A DNA stretch of 64,000 bases from Oligoflexia bacterium (lineage in GTDB: Bacteria > Bdellovibrionota_G > JANQFH01): the NCBI GenBank assembly GCA_028277945.1, contig JANQFH010000056.1, positions 248,001 to 312,000 of the forward strand, given 5' to 3'. Position 1 is the first letter of the stretch. The number at the start of each line of letters is the position of its first letter. Below, in pieces: positions 7,792-22,000 of this stretch. Under the pieces are notes generated by a model. That model saw only the letters and a program-made list of their open reading frames with translations, was not told where the DNA came from and made no database searches. Made by a program: the position numbers and the translations under genes.

Positions 7792-8181
7792 ATGGACAAA
7801 GCTCCCATTCAGGAAAAAAAGGGCTCGCGGGAAGTGGTGATTCTTGGTGGACGCTATACCATCAAAAGCAGTTACCAATCCGCCTTTGTCGATCGTACTG
7901 CGGCACTAGTAAATCATGAAATGAATGAGATTATCCGCGACGGTGGGGTCATCCCAACGGACAAGGTAGCCATCCTAGCTTGCATGAACTTAGCCAGTGA
8001 ACTTTTGAAGATACGGGAGGAGTATCAAGGAGTTAGAGATAGAATAACCAAGAGGCTTGAAAAGATCTTGGCTATGCTCGATACCTGTTTAGCCCAGGAA
8101 GAAATGAGTTACGTAGTCGACAAGCCTCAGAGGAGAGAAATTCAGGAAAATGAAAATGAAAAGGCCCTGCCCTGCAGGTGA
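7792..8181 (+). CDS. zapA: Cell division protein ZapA
   Basis: A 129-residue protein. The N-terminal globular region (VVILGGRYTIKSSY, then a helix with AALVNHEMNEI) and the long C-terminal coiled coil (ILACMNLASELLKIREEYQ onwards) are the ZapA pattern. ZapA cross-links FtsZ filaments at the division site. In many Proteobacteria zapA is directly upstream of ssrS (6S RNA), and that order is kept here; this also supports the assignment. The last codons overlap the 5' strand of the 6S RNA closing stem. Confidence 0.88.
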   Translation: MDKAPIQEKKGSREVVILGGRYTIKSSYQSAFVDRTAALVNHEMNEIIRDGGVIPTDKVAILACMNLASELLKIREEYQGVRDRITKRLEKILAMLDTCLAQEEMSYVVDKPQRREIQENENEKALPCR

Positions 8182-8341
8182 TGGTAGGTGTGTTTTTTGA
8201 GCCAACACCAATAAACACGGGAGCTGGCGCTCTGTTACCGTGTGCAAGCCTTTAAATGGGAAGCCTGACGTAATAGCATCCAGCACCCACCTGGTAGCAA
8301 ACCGGGTTCAAAAGCCAAAAGCCACACGGCAGGTTGCGGGG
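8165..8341 (+). ncRNA. ssrS: 6S RNA
   Basis: About 177 nt. The 5' end (8165-8175, CCCTGC then CCTGC) pairs with the 3' end (8329-8341, GCAGG, a TT bulge, then GCGGGG) to form the closing stem. Internal blocks match the 6S pattern in order: a GAGCC box, GGGAGCTGGCGCTC, AAGCCTTTAAA, and an ACCTGGTAGCAAACCGGGT hairpin like the 3' hairpin of E. coli 6S RNA. 6S RNA mimics an open promoter and sequesters housekeeping RNA polymerase. Its position after zapA is the expected one. Exact ends are inferred from the stem. Confidence 0.85.
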
Positions 8342-8535
8342 ACGAGATATTTGGAGATCTTGGTGACCGCTGAGTTTTATAGATACCGAACGTCGTATGT
8401 TCGAACTTTGTCCAATATAGGCCGGCAGCGTACTGCAACTTGACCGGCAGCATTAGGGAGCTCTTCTAACTCCCAAACGCAGACAAGCATCATCCGAGAT
8501 CCCCGCACTATCTCCACGAGCGGAGGGACTTCGTC
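8342..8535 (+). other. 6S RNA-rny intergenic stretch
   Basis: No ORF is supported here. An inverted repeat CGAAC...GTTCG near 8387-8404 and a GGGAG...CTCCC pair near 8455-8477 are visible, but neither carries a T-tract. A GCGGAGGGA sequence before the rny ATG is a good ribosome binding site. No convincing promoter was found, so rny may depend on read-through or on a promoter I cannot recognise. Confidence 0.4.
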
Positions 8536-10104
8536 ATGCGTTCATCTTTGTTTTATATTCTAATTTCAGGAATTTTTGGCCTTGCCCTAGGAACGTTTGT
8601 CACGTTTTTGAGTCGCAAGTTACTCGGCAGAGCAAGATTGGCTGACGCGCGTAAAAGCGCCGCCGCGTTGATAGATGATGCTAAGCGTAAATCAGCCGAC
8701 GTCGTGCGTGATGCCAAAATGCAAGCCAAGGATCAACGCTATCGTATGCAACAAGAATTTGAGCGGGAGACTCGGCAGGGTCGCAAAGAACTGCAAAAAT
8801 TGGAAAAGCGTCTGCGGGACAAACAGGAAAAACTCGATCGAAAAATCGATTTCCTTGAGCGACGACAGAATGAACTCGAAGACAAGGAAAGCCAGATTCA
8901 CAAGTTACAAAATCGTCTGGAAAGTGGAAAAACAGAATACAATCAATTAATACAAGAAGTGCGCAAGGAACTAGAGAAAGTCTCCCACCTCACCGCTGAG
9001 GAGGCTAAGAACCGCCTTATAAAAAATGTCGAAGAGGACGCTCGTATGGAGGCGGCAAAGCGGATGCGGCAAATTGAAGAGGACGCTAAAGACACATCCG
9101 AGCGTAAAGCTAATTGGATTATCGGCAATGCTGTACAACGCCTAGCAAACCACCACGTCCAAGAGAAAACTGTTTCCGTAGTGCAGCTTCCGAGTGATGA
9201 TCTAAAAGGTCGCATTATTGGGCGCGAGGGTAGAAATATCCGCACTTTAGAGCAGCTTGTTGGTATCGATTTGATCGTCGATGACACTCCAGAAGCTGTC
9301 GTGATTAGCAGCTTTAATCCCCTGCGGCGTGAGATCGCCCGACTCAGTTTGGAGGAGCTAATCAGCGATGGCCGCATTCATCCGGCAAGAATTGAAGAAG
9401 TTGTCCACAAAGTTGAAAAGCAGCTGGACAAATATATGCGTGAACTTGGAGAGCAAGCTGTTTTCGATCTTGGCATTCAAAACATGCATCCCGAACTTCT
9501 CAAGCTTGTAGGCAAACTAAACTATCGTACAAGCTATGGGCAAAACCAGTACAAGCATGCCATCGAAGTGGCGTTTATCGCTGGTATGATTGCGGCAGAA
9601 TTTGGTGAAGACATTAAGATTGCTAAGCGAGGTGGACTCTTACATGATATTGGTAAAGTCATGGATCATGATGTTGAAGGCGGCCATGCGGTTATTGGTG
9701 CCGAGTTTGCCAGAAAACACGGTGAGGAAAAAAGAGTATGGCATGCAATAGGCGCACACCATGAAGACTATCCGATTGAAACGCTCATGGACATTATTGT
9801 TCAGGTTGCTGACGCCCTGTCGGGTGCACGGCCAGGGGCGCGACGAGAGGTTATAGAGACATATATAAAACGCCTTGACGACCTAGAAGGCATTTCACAG
9901 TCCTTCAAAGGCGTGGAGAAAGCTTATGCCATTCAGGCTGGTCGAGAAGTCCGTGTAGTTGTCGCCAATGAGTCTCTCTCGGACGAAGAAACCGTATTAC
10001 TCTCTCGAGACATTGCCAAGAAGATTGAACAAGAACTAACCTATCCCGGACAGATCAAAGTGACTGTAATCCGGGAAACTAGGGCTGTGGAATTCGCAAA
10101 ATGA
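8536..10104 (+). CDS. rny: Ribonuclease Y
   Basis: A 522-residue membrane-anchored endoribonuclease. An N-terminal transmembrane helix (ILISGIFGLALGTFVTFLS) is followed by a long charged coiled coil (about residues 30-200), a KH domain with GRIIGREGRNIRTLE, and an HD domain with the metal-binding pair in GGLLHDIGKV and later HHED. Length and order match Bacillus RNase Y. It overlaps the next gene by 4 bp (ATGA), forming a rny-ymdB pair that is common in bacteria. Confidence 0.95.
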   Translation: MRSSLFYILISGIFGLALGTFVTFLSRKLLGRARLADARKSAAALIDDAKRKSADVVRDAKMQAKDQRYRMQQEFERETRQGRKELQKLEKRLRDKQEKLDRKIDFLERRQNELEDKESQIHKLQNRLESGKTEYNQLIQEVRKELEKVSHLTAEEAKNRLIKNVEEDARMEAAKRMRQIEEDAKDTSERKANWIIGNAVQRLANHHVQEKTVSVVQLPSDDLKGRIIGREGRNIRTLEQLVGIDLIVDDTPEAVVISSFNPLRREIARLSLEELISDGRIHPARIEEVVHKVEKQLDKYMRELGEQAVFDLGIQNMHPELLKLVGKLNYRTSYGQNQYKHAIEVAFIAGMIAAEFGEDIKIAKRGGLLHDIGKVMDHDVEGGHAVIGAEFARKHGEEKRVWHAIGAHHEDYPIETLMDIIVQVADALSGARPGARREVIETYIKRLDDLEGISQSFKGVEKAYAIQAGREVRVVVANESLSDEETVLLSRDIAKKIEQELTYPGQIKVTVIRETRAVEFAK

Positions 10105-10898
10105 ACGTTCTCTTCATCGGTGATGTCTTTGGCCAGCCAGGACGAGACATATTATTACAGTATCTGCAATCCATTCAATCCCACTACAGTATAGATGCCA
10201 CGATCGTCAACGGTGAGAACGCGGCTGGTGGTTTTGGCATTACTCCGCAAATTGCTGAAGAGTTTTTTGCTTCTGGAGTAGACTTGATTACTTCTGGTAA
10301 TCATATTTGGAGACAAAAGGAGATCTCCGGGTATCTAGAACAAACCAACCGTCTCTTAAGACCCCATAATATGTATGCTGATTCTCCGGGAAGTGGGTAT
10401 GGTATCATAATTGACAACCTACCCAAACCGTTAGCAGTCATTAACTTGATTGGGCGTGTCTTCATGGATAACTCGGACTGTCCCTTTCGGGTTGCTGAAC
10501 AAATATTAGCGGACATTCGTAAGCAGACCAATCTGATTGTTGTCGATTTCCATGCCGAGGCAACAAGTGAGAAGAAAGCGCTTGGCTGGTTTCTTGACGG
10601 CAAGGTATCGGCGGTACTGGGGACTCATACCCATGTGCAGACCGCAGACGAACAGATACTTCCCCGCGGCACAGCTTTTATCTCGGATGTAGGTATGACC
10701 GGGCCACATGAGTCAGTAATTGGCGTCGATAAAGACGTCATTATAGAGAGATTTGTTACACAAATGCCTCTACGCTTCGTAGTAGCGTCAGGAAGCCCTC
10801 AGATCCATGGAGTTATTCTGGAAATAGATCAACAGAGTGGCCGGGCAAACTCTATAAAACGATTATCCATTCGTGATCTCGAGGACATTGGTGGCTAA
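10101..10898 (+). CDS. ymdB: YmdB-family metallophosphoesterase
   Basis: A 265-residue calcineurin-like phosphoesterase of the TIGR00282/YmdB family. Metal-binding motifs are visible in order: FIGDVFGQPGRD, NGENAAGGFGIT, TSGNHIW, DFHAEATSEK and LGTHTHVQTAD. Family members hydrolyse 2',3'-cyclic nucleotide monophosphates and in Bacillus associate with RNase Y; the overlap with rny here supports a shared RNA-turnover role. The start ATG overlaps the rny stop. Confidence 0.9.
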   Translation: MNVLFIGDVFGQPGRDILLQYLQSIQSHYSIDATIVNGENAAGGFGITPQIAEEFFASGVDLITSGNHIWRQKEISGYLEQTNRLLRPHNMYADSPGSGYGIIIDNLPKPLAVINLIGRVFMDNSDCPFRVAEQILADIRKQTNLIVVDFHAEATSEKKALGWFLDGKVSAVLGTHTHVQTADEQILPRGTAFISDVGMTGPHESVIGVDKDVIIERFVTQMPLRFVVASGSPQIHGVILEIDQQSGRANSIKRLSIRDLEDIGG

Positions 10899-10908
10899 GG
10901 AGAATTTG

Positions 10909-12462
10909 TTGAAGTCAAAGCTGAATCGATCCACTCGTAAAACATCTACAAAAAAATCTAAGGGCAGCCAAATTATTGTCAATGCAGAGCCTTGGGAAAC
11001 AAGAGTGGCTCTCATTGAAAATGGCAGAATCGCCGCGCTATCTGTAGAGCGTAGTGCGGAAAAGAGCTATGTGGGTAACGTCTACAAAGGCCGAGTTGTC
11101 CGTGTGCTCCCGGGTATGCAAGCGGCGTTTGTAGATATAGGTTTAGAACGCACAGCTTTTCTTTATGTCGCCGAGGTGCATGACGATTTCAACAACCTTT
11201 TTGCTGGTGACATCGACGATCTTGAAGATGAGGAAGCTGCCCTGAAATCTTCGAAATTCAAGAGCATGCAGATTCAAGACATGCTTAAGGAAGGACAAGA
11301 AGTTCTCGTACAAGTTGCCAAGGGACCCATAGGCACAAAAGGAGCACGGCTTACCTGTCACATCTCCCTGCCTGGCAGGTCTCTCGTGCTCATGCCAACC
11401 ATGGATCATATCGGTGTATCCCGGCGTATCGCTGATGAACAAGAACGCCGACGTCTCAGAGACATTATTGCCAAAGTCAAAGCAAAGGGCGAAGGCTTGA
11501 TTGTTCGAACAGCTGGTGATGGACAAAGTGCAAAAGCGATTCGAGACGATGTAAGATATTTGCATAAACTCTGGGCGGACATCCAAAAACGTGCGGATAG
11601 TGTTAAAGCTCCAGCACTTATTTATAGCGAACTCAGCCTTGCACTACGTGAAGTACGCGATCTCTCTGGACAAAATACGAAACAAATCTGCATCGATGAT
11701 GATCAGACCTATAAGAACGTCGTGGACTTTATGCGTGTGTTTGTGCCGCGTAAACGACATGTTGTTGAACGCTTCAAAGGCGACCAGCCGATCTTTGACG
11801 CTTTTGATCTTGAGACGCAAATTGCTAAAACTCTAGAAAAAAAGGTATGGCTTAGGTCAGGGGGTTATCTGATTGTCGAGCAGACCGAGGCATTGGCCGC
11901 AATAGATGTGAATACGGGCAGCTACGTTGGCGAAAAGAGTTTAGACGAGACTATTCTAAAAACCAACCTTGAGGCGGTAGAGGAGATTGTCTACCAGATC
12001 CGTTTCCGCAATATTGGTGGTATTATCATTATTGATTTTATCGACATGGACAGAGCCTCGCACCGAGAGAAGGTCTATAAGGCGCTGGAAGAGGCCTTGA
12101 AAGCAGATAAGGCGCGCTCAAGGATTAGCAAGATCACCAGCCTTGGCCTGGTGGAAATGACACGTAAACGAACCGAGGAAAATCTCGGCATGGCTATGAC
12201 CGAACGCTGTGGCTACTGCAATGGCAAGGGTCGAATAAAGAGCAAAACCAGCATATGTTACGAACTCTATCGTGCTATACAACGCGAGACTCTGTCCATT
12301 AAAGAGGACAAAATATTTATCAACACCCACCCTGATATTGCCAGACTGCTTACTAAAGATGAAAAGAACAACTTGAAGACTCTTGAAACACGTATAGAGA
12401 AGAGAATCATCATAAGAAAAAACCAAAATTTACATATCGAGGACTTTGAAATCCACGCTTAA
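10909..12462 (+). CDS. rng: Ribonuclease E/G family protein
   Basis: About 517 residues. An N-terminal S1 domain (YVGNVYKGRVVRVLPGMQAA) precedes the RNase E/G catalytic core: GARLTCHISLPGRSLVLMP, the two metal-binding aspartates in AIDVNTGSYVG and IIIDFIDM, and a Zn-link CGYC near the end. There is no RNase E-type C-terminal scaffold, so RNase G-like is the better label. A TTG at 10909 lies 6 nt after AAGGAG and is the likely start; a GTG at 10873 would overlap ymdB. Together with RNase Y and YmdB it forms an RNA-processing cluster. Having both RNase Y and an E/G enzyme is notable. Confidence 0.9.
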   Translation: MKSKLNRSTRKTSTKKSKGSQIIVNAEPWETRVALIENGRIAALSVERSAEKSYVGNVYKGRVVRVLPGMQAAFVDIGLERTAFLYVAEVHDDFNNLFAGDIDDLEDEEAALKSSKFKSMQIQDMLKEGQEVLVQVAKGPIGTKGARLTCHISLPGRSLVLMPTMDHIGVSRRIADEQERRRLRDIIAKVKAKGEGLIVRTAGDGQSAKAIRDDVRYLHKLWADIQKRADSVKAPALIYSELSLALREVRDLSGQNTKQICIDDDQTYKNVVDFMRVFVPRKRHVVERFKGDQPIFDAFDLETQIAKTLEKKVWLRSGGYLIVEQTEALAAIDVNTGSYVGEKSLDETILKTNLEAVEEIVYQIRFRNIGGIIIIDFIDMDRASHREKVYKALEEALKADKARSRISKITSLGLVEMTRKRTEENLGMAMTERCGYCNGKGRIKSKTSICYELYRAIQRETLSIKEDKIFINTHPDIARLLTKDEKNNLKTLETRIEKRIIIRKNQNLHIEDFEIHA

Positions 12463-14074: not shown

Positions 14075-15559
14075 ATGCAGCAAAACGTTGCCAGAACCGA
14101 CACCATTCAGAGATTTTTCCAGCAGAACTATCTCGCTGCGCTGCCAAAAAATCTACCCACCGCACTCATTACGCTTGATAAGCAGTTAAGAGTGCAGTTC
14201 GTCAACCAACAAGCTGCGGCGCTGTTTCAATACCCTGCAAGCGAGCTACAACGAATAGATCTTCGCCGTCTTTTTCACTCAGATGAGTGGAATTTTTTAG
14301 GTCTTTGTAACCAGCAAGTCTTACGCTATGGCGCGAAAGCAGTACCTCAAGGCATACGTGTTGAGGGAAAAAACAAAAGCAACGATGCCATCATCGTAAG
14401 ACTTTACTTCAATGTATTACCAGAAAGCAGACAGGCTATCTGGAGCATCATCTTAATTCGTAATACTCTGCCTCATTTAGATCACAGCGTAAGGCGAAAA
14501 TATTCCACGCGTCCTGCTCCAGACAGTGCTATCGATGCCACAATCATTCTAACTGCCGATGATAAAATTCAATCCCTAAGTCGAGGAGCCTGTATGCTAT
14601 TTGGCTTCACTCCGGCTGCGATGATTGGACAACCGTTTACTAAATTGCTTCCGCAAGATCTACCGACGCGAAAAACGGTTCTAAAAGAGCTTTTTCTGCA
14701 CGATGTGCAACGACAAGTAAACTCCTGTCTTGCAGACTTGATAGGTAAGGGCGACCGTCGGCTCACTACAGACTGTTATTCTACAGCACTCAAAGATCAA
14801 AGGGGTAATAGGCTAGGCACGGCAGTAACCTTCTACGATAATACTGGATGGAGAAAAATCGAGCATAAGATTATTCATAATGAGCGCATTCTTGCCCTCG
14901 GGCAACTCTCAACAAGTTTGGCACATGAGATTAAAAATCCATTGCACTCGATGGTTATCAATATGGAGATACTACGGAGTCGAATTCACAAAGATGCACC
15001 ACAAGCTTATGACAAGCTTGAAAAGTATTTAAACATCTTGTCTTCTGAGGTTACGCGCTTGGATAGCGTCGTTCGTGGCTTACTTGACTTTGCAAAACCC
15101 ATGCAGGGACATTTTAAGCCAATCCGCATCAATGAAGTGTTTATGAATATCATGGAGCTTATTTATCCACAAGCCAAAAAACAGGGAGTTCAGATTGTTG
15201 CTAAGTTACCATCTGATTTACCAAACGTACGTGCTGAAGAATCACAACTAAAACAAATCTTCCTTAATCTGACGCTAAACGCACTGCAGGCCATGCCTAA
15301 AGGTGGCAAACTCACTGTACGTACTAAAAGGTTGCGTAGTGGTCGAGTTCGTTTTTCAATTACAGACACTGGGCAAGGCATCGCAAGACAGCATATGCCG
15401 CAAATTTTTAACCTATACTTTTCGACACGAGAGCGCGGTACCGGTTTAGGATTGCCCATGGTTTTACGCCTTGTAGAAAACCAGGGTGGGGCGATCCGCG
15501 TACGTAGCACGCTAAAACGTGGCAGTCACTTTTCTATTACCTTCCCGAGCGCAAGCTAA
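14075..15559 (+). CDS. PAS-domain sensor histidine kinase (NtrB-like)
   Basis: A 494-residue cytoplasmic kinase with no membrane segment. Two PAS domains lie at about residues 15-130 (LITLDKQLRVQFVNQQAAAL) and 155-270 (IILTADDKIQSLSRGACMLF). They are followed by the phosphoacceptor helix ALGQLSTSLAHEIKNPLHSM near 275 and an ATPase domain with an N box (LNLTLNALQAMP), DTGQGIA and GTGLGLPM. It would phosphorylate the NtrC-type regulator encoded next, whose start overlaps this stop as TAATG. The signal is unknown. Confidence 0.92.
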   Translation: MQQNVARTDTIQRFFQQNYLAALPKNLPTALITLDKQLRVQFVNQQAAALFQYPASELQRIDLRRLFHSDEWNFLGLCNQQVLRYGAKAVPQGIRVEGKNKSNDAIIVRLYFNVLPESRQAIWSIILIRNTLPHLDHSVRRKYSTRPAPDSAIDATIILTADDKIQSLSRGACMLFGFTPAAMIGQPFTKLLPQDLPTRKTVLKELFLHDVQRQVNSCLADLIGKGDRRLTTDCYSTALKDQRGNRLGTAVTFYDNTGWRKIEHKIIHNERILALGQLSTSLAHEIKNPLHSMVINMEILRSRIHKDAPQAYDKLEKYLNILSSEVTRLDSVVRGLLDFAKPMQGHFKPIRINEVFMNIMELIYPQAKKQGVQIVAKLPSDLPNVRAEESQLKQIFLNLTLNALQAMPKGGKLTVRTKRLRSGRVRFSITDTGQGIARQHMPQIFNLYFSTRERGTGLGLPMVLRLVENQGGAIRVRSTLKRGSHFSITFPSAS

Positions 15560-16950
15560 TGATTAACACGGAAGTCATAACCACGGCAGCATCGAAAACC
15601 AAAAGGGTGCTTATTATCGATGATGAACGGAGTGCCCGAGAGGGATTAAGTGAACTCGTCCAGTCCTGGGGCTACACCACAACAACGGCCAAAGATGGGC
15701 AGGAAGCAATTGAAATTATTAACTCTTTTCATCCGGATCTCATCATCTGCGATCTCGTTATGCCAAAGATGGACGGCATAACTATGCTAAAGAAGATACG
15801 GCAACACAGCGACGCCATGGCCATCATTCTCACCGCTCAGGGAAGCATTGATAGTGCTGTCGAAGCGATCAAGGAAGGAGCCTGCGATTATCTCACCAAA
15901 CCTATTGACATTATTCGATTACAAAATCTCCTCGGACAGCTCAGCGAGAAGTCTGACATTGTCGATGAAATCAAGCGACTGCGTCGCGAATTGCGAGAAT
16001 TTGGCAAATTCGGCTCTCTAATAGGAAAGAGTGAGCTTATGAAGGAGCTCTTTAGACAGATTGAAATTGCCGCGCCGACCGGTGCGTCCGTACTCATCAA
16101 TGGCGAGAGCGGTACGGGAAAAGAACTCGTGGCACGGGCCATTCACGATATGAGCCCACGTCGGGCAGGCTCCTTTATTGCTATTAATTGTTCAGCTATT
16201 CCTCCTTTTCTACTCGAAAGCGAAATCTTCGGATATGACAAGGGCGCCTTTACTGGAGCAAACCGTACTAAAGAGGGCTGCTACGAACTAGCGCATAACG
16301 GCACCCTTTTTCTCGATGAAATCTCTGAGATGGCTACAGAATTACAAAGCAAGCTATTACGTGTGCTTGAGGATGGTACGTTTCGCCGTATCGGTGGCAA
16401 ACAAGAACTAAGAGCCGATGTACGCCTAGTCGCTGCTTCAAATACGCCGTTTAAAAAAGCGCTCGCCAAGGGTAAGTTGCGAGAAGATCTCTATTATCGA
16501 CTCAATGTCTTTTGTCTCGAATTACCGTCGCTACAAGATAGACCTGAAGACATCCCGCTGCTTGTGCAGTACTTTATCAACGAATTTAACCGAGAAAACA
16601 GTAAAAGTGTCCGTGGTGCGGACGCCCAGACTCTACAGTGTCTACAAAGTCATATCTGGCCGGGAAACGTACGAGAGCTGCGTAACATCATTGAACGTGC
16701 CGTGATTGTCGCAAAGCAGGACCTGCTAACCATGGATGACATGCCAACTCCCATCAAAGTCGGCACAACCCATACAACCAAGGCCGCGGCCGGACCACAC
16801 CTGCGCGTTGCCATAGGATCTCCATTAAAGGAAGTCGAGAACCGACTCATTCAAAAGACCCTGGAACTGACCCGCGGCAACAAAACTGCTGCGGCGCGTA
16901 AATTAGGCATCACCGTAAAGACCCTGCACAATAAACTCGCTCGCTTATAA
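15559..16950 (+). CDS. Sigma-54-dependent response regulator (NtrC family)
   Basis: A 463-residue activator with all three domains. The receiver (residues 14-125) has the DDE start and the phosphorylation-site segment IICDLVMPKMDG. The AAA+ domain has GESGTGKE (Walker A), GAFTGA (the loop that contacts sigma-54) and GTLFLDEISEM (Walker B). A C-terminal Fis-type HTH has TAAARKLGITVKTL. It opens sigma-54 promoters using ATP. A near-consensus -24/-12 element lies 195 bp after its stop, making the downstream surface-protein gene its likely target. Confidence 0.95.
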   Translation: MINTEVITTAASKTKRVLIIDDERSAREGLSELVQSWGYTTTTAKDGQEAIEIINSFHPDLIICDLVMPKMDGITMLKKIRQHSDAMAIILTAQGSIDSAVEAIKEGACDYLTKPIDIIRLQNLLGQLSEKSDIVDEIKRLRRELREFGKFGSLIGKSELMKELFRQIEIAAPTGASVLINGESGTGKELVARAIHDMSPRRAGSFIAINCSAIPPFLLESEIFGYDKGAFTGANRTKEGCYELAHNGTLFLDEISEMATELQSKLLRVLEDGTFRRIGGKQELRADVRLVAASNTPFKKALAKGKLREDLYYRLNVFCLELPSLQDRPEDIPLLVQYFINEFNRENSKSVRGADAQTLQCLQSHIWPGNVRELRNIIERAVIVAKQDLLTMDDMPTPIKVGTTHTTKAAAGPHLRVAIGSPLKEVENRLIQKTLELTRGNKTAAARKLGITVKTLHNKLARL

Positions 16951-17145
16951 CAAAGCGGGTAATTTTTACACTGTTCGAAGAGTTCGATTTTCTAAATAAC
17001 CCCTGAAAATAAAAAAATTTTCAACTTTAAGGCACCATGACTCAGAAATGGGCCACACTAAAGCGAGCAAAAATTACGCGATGTCAACTTAGACAAAATA
17101 ACCAGTAAATCTTTAATTGCTTGATTTTAATAATAGACCTCATTC
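16951..17145 (+). other. AT-rich upstream region of the sigma-54 promoter
   Basis: No gene is supported here. The stretch is AT-rich and would be where NtrC-type enhancer sites sit. The imperfect dyad GGCACCAT/ATGGGCC (about 17031-17054) is the best candidate and is weak. No terminator with a T-tract was found for the kinase-activator operon. Confidence 0.3.
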
Positions 17146-17161
17146 TGGCACAACCTATGCA
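17146..17161 (+). promoter_or_regulatory. Sigma-54 (-24/-12) promoter
   Basis: TGGCACAACCTATGCA matches the consensus TGGCAC-N5-TTGCA at every defined position except one T in the -12 element. GG-to-GC spacing is the required 10 bp. It points towards the 1509-residue surface protein, with transcription expected to start near 17173, about 300 nt before the ATG. The NtrC-type gene just upstream strengthens the call. Confidence 0.75.
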
Positions 17162-17172
17162 AGTGGCGCTAC

Positions 17173-17470
17173 TGTTCAGCGAGGTTTAACGAGCGAGGGG
17201 GCTTCAAAACAATTTGATGGTATGGGATCGATGCTTGGCTGTGATCCATGAAACTGGCACTACCTCATTTCCCCCTACGATATTTGCCAGCGATCTAGCC
17301 AACACTTCTGGAAGTCCCCCAAGTCCGGGAGTGCTTTAGGCGCAGGCCGCTTAATGGACAAACATCGATCCCTGCCATTTGCCCATTCCCAAGACACATA
17401 GTCAACATCCTGCAAAACCGTTATAATTTTCTAAGAGCAGATTTTTCTTAGCAAATCCTCAACAGGAACG
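17173..17470 (+). ncRNA. Structured leader or sRNA downstream of the sigma-54 promoter (candidate)
   Basis: About 300 nt with no ORF. GGGGGCTTC (17197-17205) can pair with GAAGTCCCCC (17311-17320). Inside lie two hairpins: ATGGGATC/GATCCAT (17222-17229 with 17243-17249) and CTGGCA/TGCCAG (17254-17259 with 17285-17290), the latter displaying a 25-nt pyrimidine-rich loop. Together these make a three-way junction. GTCC/GGAC (17323-17359) could add a fourth stem. It resembles no riboswitch class that I recognise; I could not fold it computationally. It could be a 5' UTR regulator or a separate sRNA. Confidence 0.4.
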
Positions 17471-20400
17471 TTGGCTATGGCGGTAAAATTCACTCTGCAT
17501 CTACAAATCTTCCTGCTCATCTATTATCTAGCCTGCCCATACGCCCTTGCTGATTCTGCCTGGAACCAAGGCGATATCCACAGTGTGGAGCAGTTTATCG
17601 AACTTCTCCTACCAGTCTCTGGTCGCGAACGACGCACTGCCTTTCTACCCTTGCCCCAATGGGGCAAGAAAAAACCCGCCTACCGCAAATTTCAGTGGAA
17701 GCGCTTCGAAAGCCAACATTTTACCTTTTATTCCTATCCCGAAGGTGAGGCAGTTTTGCAAGAGGTCATTCGACTCCTTGAAGAGCACTTTGATGCCAAC
17801 AACGATCTCTTTGGCGTTACTAGCCGTTTCACTCATAAGGTGCCGGTAATCTTCTATCAGAGCCGGGAGGACTTTGAGCAGACCCACACCATTCGTGGTG
17901 TCATCCCAGAAGGTCTCGGTGGCGTTACCGAGCTCTTTGCCTGGAAACGGGTCATATTCCCCTTCGAAGGCTCCTGGACAAAGCTCGAACACGTGGTCCG
18001 CCACGAAGGCACTCACATCTATCAAATTGCCATGCAGCCTCGCTTACCTCTATGGTTCATAGAAGGTAGTGCAGAGACAAACTCTATCGGTTGGGATGCG
18101 GATGCTGAGACAATTTTACGGGATGCTTACCAAAATGAACTCATACCACCGATAAACCAATTGGTACGGATTCGTGGCACCTGGCTGATGTATAAAGTTG
18201 GCCACTTTATTACCAACTACATTTTACAACGCTATGGTCGAACTGCGTTTCGTGATCTCTATATCAACTCCTCTAAAATGAGCTTCCGGAAAAATGTTTC
18301 TCGATCTCTGAAGATCGATCTTGACCAACTAAATCGAGAAGTGCGCCATGAACTCGACCGTCAATTTGGAGAGGTATTACGGCAAAAAGACTTTACAGAT
18401 CGAGCTGATGAAATCGACAAAGGCTTCTTGCTGGCGGCCTACCAAGATCACTATCTCTCAGGCCTTGTAAAGCGAGGCAGACTGCGCCTACACCTCAATC
18501 ACTTTGAGCCAAGAGTCGGACTGGTTTCCCAAAGAGTCGTGTTTGACCGCCAACTAGGTACGGAATCGCTGCGTCGTTTTGAAGGTGGCGGTGATATGGA
18601 TAAAGAACAGATCATTTATACGGCCAAGAGACAGCGCAACGATGTGCTGCGCATACAGAAATATGAGTACGACAGCAGGAAAAGAACCTTCAAACTCAGC
18701 AAACCCGAAGAGTATGGTTGGCAGCAGATCGATCGCATCACCGATCCTACCCTGATCTCGACAGACCGCTTTGCTTTTATTGGTTATACCGGTGGATTCA
18801 CAAACCTCTACCTCTACAATAAGCAGACACAAAAATTACAACAGCTAACCCACGAAAACCATCATCTTACCGGTCTCGATTATTCGCCACGACGACAACA
18901 ACTTGTCTACGCCAAAGAGGTCGCCAAAAACAAAGCTAAACCTACCTATAACTACGATCTTTTCCTCTTTGACCTTACCACCTCTAAAGAAATCCCTCTG
19001 TTTACAACCTTCGACAATGAGAAAAGACCTCGCTTTTCGCCAAGAGGCGACGCCATCCTCTATGTTACAGATCGAAATAATCGTTTTAATATCGCCCACT
19101 ACGATCTGCAAACGAGACAGCAACACCAGTGGACCGATGCGAAGATTGGTTTTCCAGCAGCGGAATGGGCAGGTAGTACACGGTTACTCGTTGTTTCACC
19201 AAAAAAACTGACGCCGCATATCTTCCGGGGCACCCTACCAGCTCACAAACAGAGAATACAACGCATGCTTACCAAGGTGGAGGACGAGAACGCCACTTGG
19301 GTCTCTACGGTCAACACCGATACTCAATTCTACCCAAGTATAGAGAAACCTGATGACACGACCCCAACCGTCGATATCGTCCTCGGACCGACTCAGATTA
19401 AACAGCGTAAACTCCTGCTCAAGAAACAGCAGCCGTACCGTGTCCTTGCACTCACCGCCATTGACAATGAGATCTACTTTGTTGGCAAAGAAACGAGTGC
19501 ACAGCAGAGACCCGCACGTGAGCGCGACAAGCCAATTTACTTTTCATTGGGTACAACCACTGCCGAGGCAATCTCACGGGAACCCAGTGTAGCAGCACTG
19601 GGACGGCAGCAACTTCCAAAGACGCTTGTAGAGTTCTCTAAGCGCAACACGATTATGGAGCATTTCGTGGCACCCGATGGGAAGCAGGCCATTGTCCGTT
19701 TGAATCGAGTGCTATCCCTGGATAGGCAGGAACACCCAGACAAGGAAGACTTCCCTCTTTTCCTTGTAAACTTGTCCACAAAGCAGATGGCGCCCATTCC
19801 GAGCAACAAATACCTCAGCAATATCGACTATCGTCTTGAGAGGGTGGAATTTTTGAGTAATCAAAAAATTCTCTTTGTTGCTATAAAACCACAACTGCAG
19901 CGGCCAAAGATCCGACTCGCTATATACAACATCGAGGAGCGCTCTCTCAACAGCGCCTTCGGCAGAATCAAGGAACACACCATCTCAACGGACTCCCGTT
20001 ACGTTGCTGCTCGAACCCACAAAGATAAAATCCTGCTTTACGATACTCTGGACGGGAAAATACGCCAGATCTATGGTGGCGGTGAACTGATCCCACCGCC
20101 AAGCATGGGATTTACGACCTCGGCAGCGCTTGCTTACATTACTAAAAGCAACACCAATACTCCGCTAAACTATAAACTAAATTTTATTCACGTGGCCGCT
20201 AAGATCCAGCAAAGCGTGGCGTTCTATCTCGATGACCGCTATCAGGTAATTTCCGGAGTATTTTCAGAGGCATTTAGCCGTAACTTGTTTACCTTCGCCC
20301 TCCGCTGTGTCGACAGGCTCAGTCCTAGCAAAGCCCAAGCGCTATTTGTCTTTGATCCGGGAACCAAGGAACTGGTCGACATTTCAGCGGATGCCCTGAA

Positions 20401-22000
20401 ATTCGATCATCTCCTCTTTCATAAGCGAACTCTCTTCTATGCAGCTGCGCAAGAAGAGGAAGGTAGACGATACTACTGGTATCGAGATGGCAAGAGGGGG
20501 CGCTTCTTCGACACAGAAACAGCGGATTTCCATAAGCAGAGTGAGACGCTTGTTCTCGAAGGAGAATCGGGCCTCCTGCTCTTTCGCCTTAAACCTCGTA
20601 CCATTGAACTGCTGCATCCACAGACCTTTGGATTTGATATCAGTGGATCTACCTTGCTCTTTAGTGGGCTGGAGGCAAAAAATTTTCAACTCTACGCCCT
20701 CGATCTCAAGACCAACAACAGAGTGTTGCTGCCACCTCTTGCAGGAGATCTACTCCAACCGAAAATTCGGGTGCAAGATGGCGTTCCAGAAATCGCCTTT
20801 AGCCGTTACTTCAATGATACTTTCTCCGTTGGCTCTCTAACGCTGCCCCGTGATCGCGCCGCAAAGACTTCCGAATACCGCCTATTTACGCGTAACGATG
20901 GTTGGCTGTTTGCGCCTGGCTTTGCGGAGGGTCAACTCCACGGCAAATTCGCCAAAAAACCAACAGAGTTGATAAAGAGGCCGACTCCCATAAAGGAGCC
21001 GTCAGAAGACTCAGAAATTCCTGTGCTTCTCAGTGACAAATCTGCTGGCGCTTTTCGTCTACGACGTGCCGCTGCCGCCGTTGCCTTCGATGGCAGCCGC
21101 TTTCGCTACTTGGTCTCGGCCTATGCAGAAAACCTCTTTTCCGACCACAACCTCTTTGTCAACAGCATCTTTCTTAGCGACGAACTTATTGCTAGTGTTG
21201 GTTTTTCAAACAAACGGCATAGCTACGATATCCTTGCCAACTATACCGACGTTCCTGAAGTTCGCGTTGGCAGTGTGGTATTCAACCGTCCCTTTCTACT
21301 CGACGAGTTTCGTGAGATTGATCTCTACAGCGAGTTTGAAGTGCAGGTCTATCGCTCCCTCAAACCTGAATCGCCCCCATGGATTACAGCTGACGTTGCT
21401 AGCCGCACCTTTCTCGTCGGTAAAGCAGGTGTTGCCTACGGCTTTGATGAAACCGTGTGGGATCGGCACGGCCCCTTCTCTGGCAAACGGCTCTTCCTCA
21501 AAGCCGAACTAGGAATAGATGTTGAAAGCGGCAACATCGCCAATGCCGATACCAATCTTGATCTGCGGATCTATACCGATCTTACGCAGCGGTTCAGCAT
21601 TGCCAGCCGTGTGGTTGCCGGCATTAGCCGCGGCGACCTGCCGACAGTCTTTTTGCTTGGTGGCAATATCTCCTTTCGCGGTGTTGGTTTTGACGAGCTC
21701 GATGGCAACCAGTACTGGGTCTTTAGCCAAGACGTACGAATACCGATTTTGGATTTTGTTGGAGCTCGAGTGGCTGGCCCAGCCGATGCCTTCCTCGGAC
21801 TGCTCCTGCGCTACTTTGATCTGCGTGGCGGCCCCTATGTGGATGTCGGCGCTGTCTGGCTCGAGGATGAGGACTACGATCAAATCTACAGTGTCGGCTA
21901 TTTCTTTAGTGTGCCAACGATCTTTGGCCTTAACTTTCGCTTCAGTCAGGGACTCTTTGGTGAGGATGGCATCAACATCTGGCTTGGCGCTAGCTGGTAA
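17471..22000 (+). CDS. Giant surface protein: metallopeptidase-like, beta-propeller and Omp85-like barrel
   Basis: A 1509-residue exported protein. A hydrophobic signal segment lies at residues 5-27. At 178-182 there is HEGTH, an HExxH zinc-binding motif, with a second glutamate in FIEGSAE about 20 residues on, as in gluzincin (peptidase MA-like) domains. From about 350 to 1150 come repeated TolB/PD40-type blades, such as RPRFSPRGDAILYVTD. The last 350 residues look like an Omp85/surface-antigen barrel, with FLLGGNISFRGVGF and a C-terminal Trp. It probably sits in the outer membrane. It lies downstream of the sigma-54 promoter and the structured leader. Enzyme activity is not proven. Confidence 0.7.
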   Translation: MAMAVKFTLHLQIFLLIYYLACPYALADSAWNQGDIHSVEQFIELLLPVSGRERRTAFLPLPQWGKKKPAYRKFQWKRFESQHFTFYSYPEGEAVLQEVIRLLEEHFDANNDLFGVTSRFTHKVPVIFYQSREDFEQTHTIRGVIPEGLGGVTELFAWKRVIFPFEGSWTKLEHVVRHEGTHIYQIAMQPRLPLWFIEGSAETNSIGWDADAETILRDAYQNELIPPINQLVRIRGTWLMYKVGHFITNYILQRYGRTAFRDLYINSSKMSFRKNVSRSLKIDLDQLNREVRHELDRQFGEVLRQKDFTDRADEIDKGFLLAAYQDHYLSGLVKRGRLRLHLNHFEPRVGLVSQRVVFDRQLGTESLRRFEGGGDMDKEQIIYTAKRQRNDVLRIQKYEYDSRKRTFKLSKPEEYGWQQIDRITDPTLISTDRFAFIGYTGGFTNLYLYNKQTQKLQQLTHENHHLTGLDYSPRRQQLVYAKEVAKNKAKPTYNYDLFLFDLTTSKEIPLFTTFDNEKRPRFSPRGDAILYVTDRNNRFNIAHYDLQTRQQHQWTDAKIGFPAAEWAGSTRLLVVSPKKLTPHIFRGTLPAHKQRIQRMLTKVEDENATWVSTVNTDTQFYPSIEKPDDTTPTVDIVLGPTQIKQRKLLLKKQQPYRVLALTAIDNEIYFVGKETSAQQRPARERDKPIYFSLGTTTAEAISREPSVAALGRQQLPKTLVEFSKRNTIMEHFVAPDGKQAIVRLNRVLSLDRQEHPDKEDFPLFLVNLSTKQMAPIPSNKYLSNIDYRLERVEFLSNQKILFVAIKPQLQRPKIRLAIYNIEERSLNSAFGRIKEHTISTDSRYVAARTHKDKILLYDTLDGKIRQIYGGGELIPPPSMGFTTSAALAYITKSNTNTPLNYKLNFIHVAAKIQQSVAFYLDDRYQVISGVFSEAFSRNLFTFALRCVDRLSPSKAQALFVFDPGTKELVDISADALKFDHLLFHKRTLFYAAAQEEEGRRYYWYRDGKRGRFFDTETADFHKQSETLVLEGESGLLLFRLKPRTIELLHPQTFGFDISGSTLLFSGLEAKNFQLYALDLKTNNRVLLPPLAGDLLQPKIRVQDGVPEIAFSRYFNDTFSVGSLTLPRDRAAKTSEYRLFTRNDGWLFAPGFAEGQLHGKFAKKPTELIKRPTPIKEPSEDSEIPVLLSDKSAGAFRLRRAAAAVAFDGSRFRYLVSAYAENLFSDHNLFVNSIFLSDELIASVGFSNKRHSYDILANYTDVPEVRVGSVVFNRPFLLDEFREIDLYSEFEVQVYRSLKPESPPWITADVASRTFLVGKAGVAYGFDETVWDRHGPFSGKRLFLKAELGIDVESGNIANADTNLDLRIYTDLTQRFSIASRVVAGISRGDLPTVFLLGGNISFRGVGFDELDGNQYWVFSQDVRIPILDFVGARVAGPADAFLGLLLRYFDLRGGPYVDVGAVWLEDEDYDQIYSVGYFFSVPTIFGLNFRFSQGLFGEDGINIWLGASW

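Follow-up and report, generated by a model that had tools for sequence, protein, structure and literature searches.

The window analysed here, a stretch of 64,000 nucleotides from an Oligoflexia bacterium, carries a histidine kinase gene, the gene of a sigma-54-dependent response regulator, a sigma-54 promoter element, a proposed small RNA and the gene of a large exported protein, in this order. The features of the locus are as follows.

14075-15559, forward strand: P0003, a PAS-domain histidine kinase and presumably the regulator's partner (Pfam HisKA, HATPase_c, PAS)
15559-16950, forward strand: NtrC-type sigma-54-dependent response regulator, P0001 (Response_reg, Sigma54_activat, HTH_8)
16957-16971, forward strand: candidate binding site of P0001, GGGTAATTTTTACAC; a similar site, GTGTAGTTTTTACAC, is present in genome G002
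17065-17079, reverse strand: weaker second candidate site with 3 mismatches, in opposite orientation, which may be due to chance
17146-17161, forward strand: sigma-54 -24/-12 promoter element TGGCACAACCTATGCA, by pattern match; its counterpart in G002 is TGGCACATTAACTGCT
17172-17385, forward strand: proposed small RNA, its start placed by promoter spacing, its 3' end uncertain
17217-17233, forward strand: 5' arm of the closing helix, pairing with 17363-17378 (P 0.89-1.0)
17235-17302, forward strand: hairpin bearing the conserved loop (stems P 0.93-1.0)
17262-17278, forward strand: conserved loop ACCTCATTTCCCCCTAC, the proposed pairing region, exact in G002 and with one base different in genome G004 (ATCTCATTTCCCCCTAC)
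17303-17333, forward strand: second hairpin, its loop with a C5 run (AGUCCCCCAAG; stem P 0.99)
17336-17354, forward strand: third junction hairpin (stem P 0.89)
17363-17378, forward strand: 3' arm of the closing helix, pairing with 17217-17233
17399-17427, forward strand: sigma-70-like promoter TAGTCA-17-TATAAT, probably of the downstream gene (consensus match 10/12)
17477-22000, forward strand: large exported protein P0002, judged to lie outside the module, its orthologues being unlinked to the RNA

The regulator P0001 contains a receiver domain, a GAFTGA-bearing AAA+ domain and a Fis-type domain. The -24/-12 element of the original prediction, TGGCACAACCTATGCA, is indeed present and is the sole match to TGGCACN6TGCW in the window; taken alone the match is not significant, with 0.38 matches expected and at least one found in 33 of 100 shuffled sequences. 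It gains weight because it is sited behind a GAFTGA-type sigma-54 response regulator and because a matching element occurs at the homologous place in G002. As judged from the sequence elements, a -24/-12 promoter lies immediately 5' of the RNA in both the window and G002, and in both a pair of kinase and sigma-54 regulator genes adjoins the RNA gene. The G002 regulator is orthologous to P0001, with 60% identity (the next best protein in G002 reaches about 41%), and the kinases at the two places share 32% identity. The presence of RpoN itself is assumed from that of the sigma-54 activators.

The candidate regulator sites lie between regulator and promoter in both genomes, 191 nt (GGGTAATTTTTACAC, window) and 119 nt (GTGTAGTTTTTACAC, G002) 5' of the -24 element. 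The pattern GKGTARTTTTTACAC, which was derived from these two sites themselves, matches once in the window genome and once in G002 when at most one mismatch is allowed, each time just 5' of the RNA. Such a unique candidate site, to which we infer that P0001 binds, fits a regulator that would be devoted to a single promoter.

An Rfam search with curated and permissive thresholds yields no relevant match for the region downstream of the promoter (the gathering threshold of 6C RNA is not reached either), and a plausible coding sequence is absent, in line with the earlier view that the region resembles no known riboswitch and holds no open reading frame. No recognisable intrinsic terminator was found for the RNA, including the stretch between the RNA and position 17477. 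Of the fold proposed for the leader, the hairpin with a 25-nt C/U-rich loop is found, with a pair probability of 0.98 for CUGGCA (17254-17259) and UGCCAG (17285-17290), but the three-way junction is wrong. The ensemble of 17172-17385 gives the long-range stem (17197-17205 with 17311-17320) a probability of 0, and the predicted topology is four-way instead. In this ensemble a closing helix of 16 bp, with P of about 0.89 for the outer 6 bp and about 1.0 for the inner 10 bp, encloses a four-way junction with three hairpins (17235-17302, 17303-17333 and 17336-17354). In shorter transcripts a G-run close to the 5' end (17197-17202) is able to base-pair with the C-run of the conserved loop. A switch between G-run and C-run would be speculative, and G002 has no such G-run.

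The stretch 17172-17470 folds moderately better than its shuffles (z -2.2). For the domain 17216-17380, the ends of which were picked after the fold had been seen, z is -4.8, and the longer stretch 17172-17380 gives a weaker z of -2.3, matched by 1.5% of the shuffles. Compared with shuffles that keep the core, the full-length RNAs have z values of -4.8 (window, 17216-17380), -5.4 (G002) and -3.8 (G004), values that are favoured by the analyst's choice of the RNA ends. In the three RNAs the exposed C-rich loop is predicted to be 0.89-0.91 unpaired and is enclosed by 34-41 pairs, both of which are matched by 0 of 200 core-keeping shuffles for each RNA; in the window the mean is 0.89 across the final 15 bases of 17262-17278. 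The hairpin forms in the full-length RNA, and is absent in G002 and G004 when the loop is folded with flanks of 28 nt only. An automatic consensus fold of the core from the three members is empty. A second C-rich loop is also present in G002, within an intrinsic terminator hairpin with a T6 tail, and is missing in G004.

When 58 genomes are searched with this region, a single match is notable, 20 identical nucleotides (17259-17278) in G002, which is weak by itself (E 0.006 in one genome, roughly 0.3 for all 58). It is convincing because of its context, with the orthologous regulator upstream on the same strand, the kinase and the TGGCACATTAACTGCT promoter. A pattern search of five genomes of the phylum reveals a third copy of the loop in G004 (two mismatches in 18; 17 of 19 bases agree), and the reversed control has 0 matches. 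The motif AYCUCAUUUCCCCCUAC caps a long hairpin domain in all three genomes, and the C/U difference of the G004 loop would keep pairing with G. Outside AYCTCATTTCCCCCTAC the three RNAs align poorly. By this comparison the putative RNA is a real, conserved element, with a fixed loop and a remainder that hardly aligns. In G004 the kinase/regulator pair is not adjacent to the RNA, which is preceded there by an extended -10 promoter, TGCTATAAT; sigma-54 control is not universal, because G004 lacks the adjoining pair. An assignment of the G004 promoter as TTGACT-17-TATAAT was ruled out, since its spacer measures 14 nt and the extended -10 promoter fits better. An RNA identical to that of G004 is found in JAGRAY010000047.1, deposited as Bdellovibrionales bacterium HKST-UBA30.

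The known members come from three genomes and three families of one phylum. A sequence model (R1) run over 385 genomes makes only these three stand out, the remaining matches being at chance number; the best 17 of the other R1 matches lie within long open frames. Among GTDB species genomes an exact scan with the loop gives 30 matches and no further member; one of them (L058) is the G004 locus again, the others lack the hairpin and mostly lie in long open frames, and none is myxobacterial. In G001 and G003, allowing up to three mismatches, six matches are found, fewer than in the reversed control and with no convincing hairpin, and none of the one-mismatch matches to the 12-nt core forms the hairpin. 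No copy of the loop was found in viral contigs. Exact and pattern searches of this kind would miss diverged loops, and the G004 assembly is 74% complete.

A conserved stretch of this kind might encode a small protein, as the frame that reads TTSFPPT is open across the loop in the window (40 codons from ATG) and in G002 (36 codons from GTG). Peptide coding is nevertheless extremely unlikely, because in G004 this frame lacks a start codon (ATG, GTG or TTG); in addition, no Shine-Dalgarno sequence stands at a normal distance and the third codon positions of the motif are invariant.

The RNA might instead belong to the giant gene downstream, as a cis-acting 5' leader on a sigma-54 transcript that continues into 17477 and controls translation of the protein. 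In this genome RNA and gene share a strand, with the gene on the 3' side, and read-through would be possible with no intrinsic terminator found between them. However, the RNA does not stay upstream of the orthologues of the giant gene. In G002 the orthologue is located on contig C23 and the RNA on C108, behind the kinase and regulator, and in both G002 and G001 the orthologue directly follows another gene, without such a leader. The sigma-70-like promoter between RNA and gene also speaks against a shared transcript, although with 2.4 such consensus matches expected in the 2 kb scanned it is not evidence of function. The cis-regulatory leader of the original prediction is thus disfavoured and now appears very unlikely. 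A search of G003 for P0002 gave no match; G004 was outside that search. The protein itself weakly matches a DPPIV_N-like propeller, and its C-terminus resembles an outer-membrane barrel by eye. In G002 and G001 the gene that precedes the full-length orthologue looks RNase-H-like by eye; this linkage is lost in the window.

The other possibility raised originally, a sigma-54-dependent small RNA, gains support from the second genome, G002, in which promoter, regulator and loop recur together. The RNA is probably a stand-alone small RNA under two-component and sigma-54 control, with a C-rich loop that would act in trans without Hfq. The arguments are the gene order, the promoter and site elements, the conservation and predicted exposure of the loop, the separation from the giant gene and the lack of a recognisable Hfq, all read from the sequence. 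In the proposed mechanism the histidine kinase would phosphorylate the NtrC-type regulator encoded directly upstream of the RNA, and the regulator would bind its GGGTAATTTTTACAC-type site and activate the sigma-54 promoter. This promoter would yield a stand-alone regulatory RNA of about 165-215 nt, of which the folded domain would display the C-rich loop ACCUCAUUUCCCCCUAC, together with a second C-rich loop in the window and G002. The loop could then base-pair with target mRNAs at G-rich or Shine-Dalgarno-like sequences in their start regions and lower their translation. We infer each of these steps, from transcription and phosphorelay to site binding, mRNA pairing and the direction of the effect. 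Hfq was not found in the four genomes searched (G000-G003), and therefore a chaperone-free mode would be needed. A C-rich-loop RNA that acts without Hfq on G-rich start regions is known in sX13 (PMC3771888).

The earlier suggestion of a C/U-rich loop that could bind ribosome binding sites is plausible, since no other part of the RNA is conserved. Pairing to mRNA is the weakest link of the proposal, and a protein-binding loop is the alternative. Long complements of the loop are not clearly more frequent than those of the reversed control, and at the starts of 40 window genes the loop reaches a mean of -8.5 kcal/mol versus -10.2 kcal/mol for the reversed loop, and is thus no better. The loop might instead be a binding site for a protein, and the RNA a protein sponge rather than an antisense RNA. 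A known example of this kind is CrcZ, which works by binding Hfq/Crc. A loop that is nearly invariant over three families is what a fixed partner would require, the searches for mRNA targets found none, and CrcZ shares the gene order, being encoded directly downstream of the sigma-54 regulator gene cbrB (PMC10562864). On the other hand, sponges usually carry repeated binding sites, of which a single loop offers few, and no candidate protein is at hand, Hfq not being found in G000-G003. The sponge is considered rather unlikely, and trans-acting antisense pairing is the preferred reading.

Further features of the surroundings were noted. A 6S RNA is encoded at 8161-8346 of the window (forward strand; Rfam, 90 bits), directly before the genes of RNase Y, YmdB and an RNase E/G protein (8536-12462). 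An RNA-turnover cluster is thus found close to the small RNA. In G002 (L105 58-9504) and G004 (L106 45-4001) the small RNA gene is flanked on one side by an AMP-binding ligase gene of the same orientation and on the other by recG, which is convergent. The two AMP-ligases share 30% identity over 185 residues, and the search for recG found none in G000 or G001; the neighbourhood might represent old synteny, for which it is suggestive only. Between the small RNA and recG, G002 also contains genes of an AbiEii-type toxin and an antidote-like HTH protein (L105 2237-4272, reverse strand), perhaps a later insertion.

Most likely the RNA is a previously undescribed small RNA that would constitute a new RNA family of a known kind. 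If this holds true, the family comes from a poorly sampled phylum, and its activator, promoter and putative pairing loop are all legible in the DNA. It would also be a case of a small RNA in which the loop is fixed while the stems change, and in which the promoter class differs in one lineage.

The layout of the locus can be compared with those of known small RNA systems. CrcZ of the CbrA/CbrB system in Pseudomonas is likewise encoded immediately downstream of a sigma-54 regulator, which activates its RpoN-dependent promoter (PMC10562864), but it has repeated A-rich sites where the present RNA has one conserved loop, and Hfq was not found here. GlmY of the QseE/QseF system in Enterobacteriaceae likewise adjoins a two-component operon, the regulator of which drives a sigma-54 promoter by binding upstream activating sequences (TGTN12ACA); a sigma-70 promoter serves as well (PMC6075780). 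Unlike the present RNA, GlmY is sited upstream of the operon and functions as a decoy of the RapZ protein (PMC7073468). C-rich apical loops are shared with sX13 of Xanthomonas, which represses mRNAs with G-rich motifs near their start codons without Hfq (PMC3771888), and with 6C RNA of Actinobacteria, which is reported to use its C-rich loops to bind several mRNAs without chaperones (cited in PMC9569102). A coupling to sigma-54 or a two-component system is not described for either RNA in the sources consulted, and 6C has no Rfam match here.

Pxr of Myxococcus xanthus is encoded directly downstream of a kinase and a sigma-54 regulator (PxrK/PxrR, the same as SpdS/SpdR, the latter Nla19), as is the present RNA, and the two also share a predicted sigma-54 promoter, an upstream enhancer region, the absence of hfq and a C-rich loop, which in Pxr is that of the first hairpin. 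For Pxr the position downstream of nla19/pxrR, the predicted promoter, the need for the first loop and a host without hfq are documented (PMC5568312, PMC10217877, PMC5684412). It differs in its length of about 108 nt and its three simple stem-loops, compared with a long hairpin domain, a four-way junction and a longer fixed loop here. The whole PxrK/PxrR/Pxr module could be shared by descent, which would make the present RNA a true Pxr homologue. Both loci have the order kinase, sigma-54 regulator, upstream site region, sigma-54 promoter and small RNA (PMC5568312, PMC10217877), and hfq, absent from myxobacteria (PMC5684412), was not found here either. In a Pxr sequence mostly rebuilt from published primers and a probe, SL1 forms a stem whose loop carries UUCCCCCC; this loop is essential for function. 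Yet only UUCCCCC is common to the present RNA and the rebuilt Pxr, as compared by eye without a formal alignment, which is little, and CbrB/CrcZ has the same gene order; such homology is unlikely. It is equally doubtful, if conceivable, that the Pxr checkpoint has an ancient relative outside the myxobacteria in this module, with a kinase and regulator that serve a single C-rich-loop small RNA and gate a growth or life-cycle transition; in that case G004 would have lost the two-component control, or never possessed it, and would place the same RNA under a housekeeping-type promoter. Nothing here indicates that the host is a myxobacterium, and a relative from its phylum bears the record name Bdellovibrionales bacterium HKST-UBA30. 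So far Pxr has been described from myxobacteria only (PMC5684412), and the present locus, if correctly read, offers a test of whether Pxr-type control extends further. The likeness to Pxr is one of layout and loop type, and among the layouts compared it is the closest.
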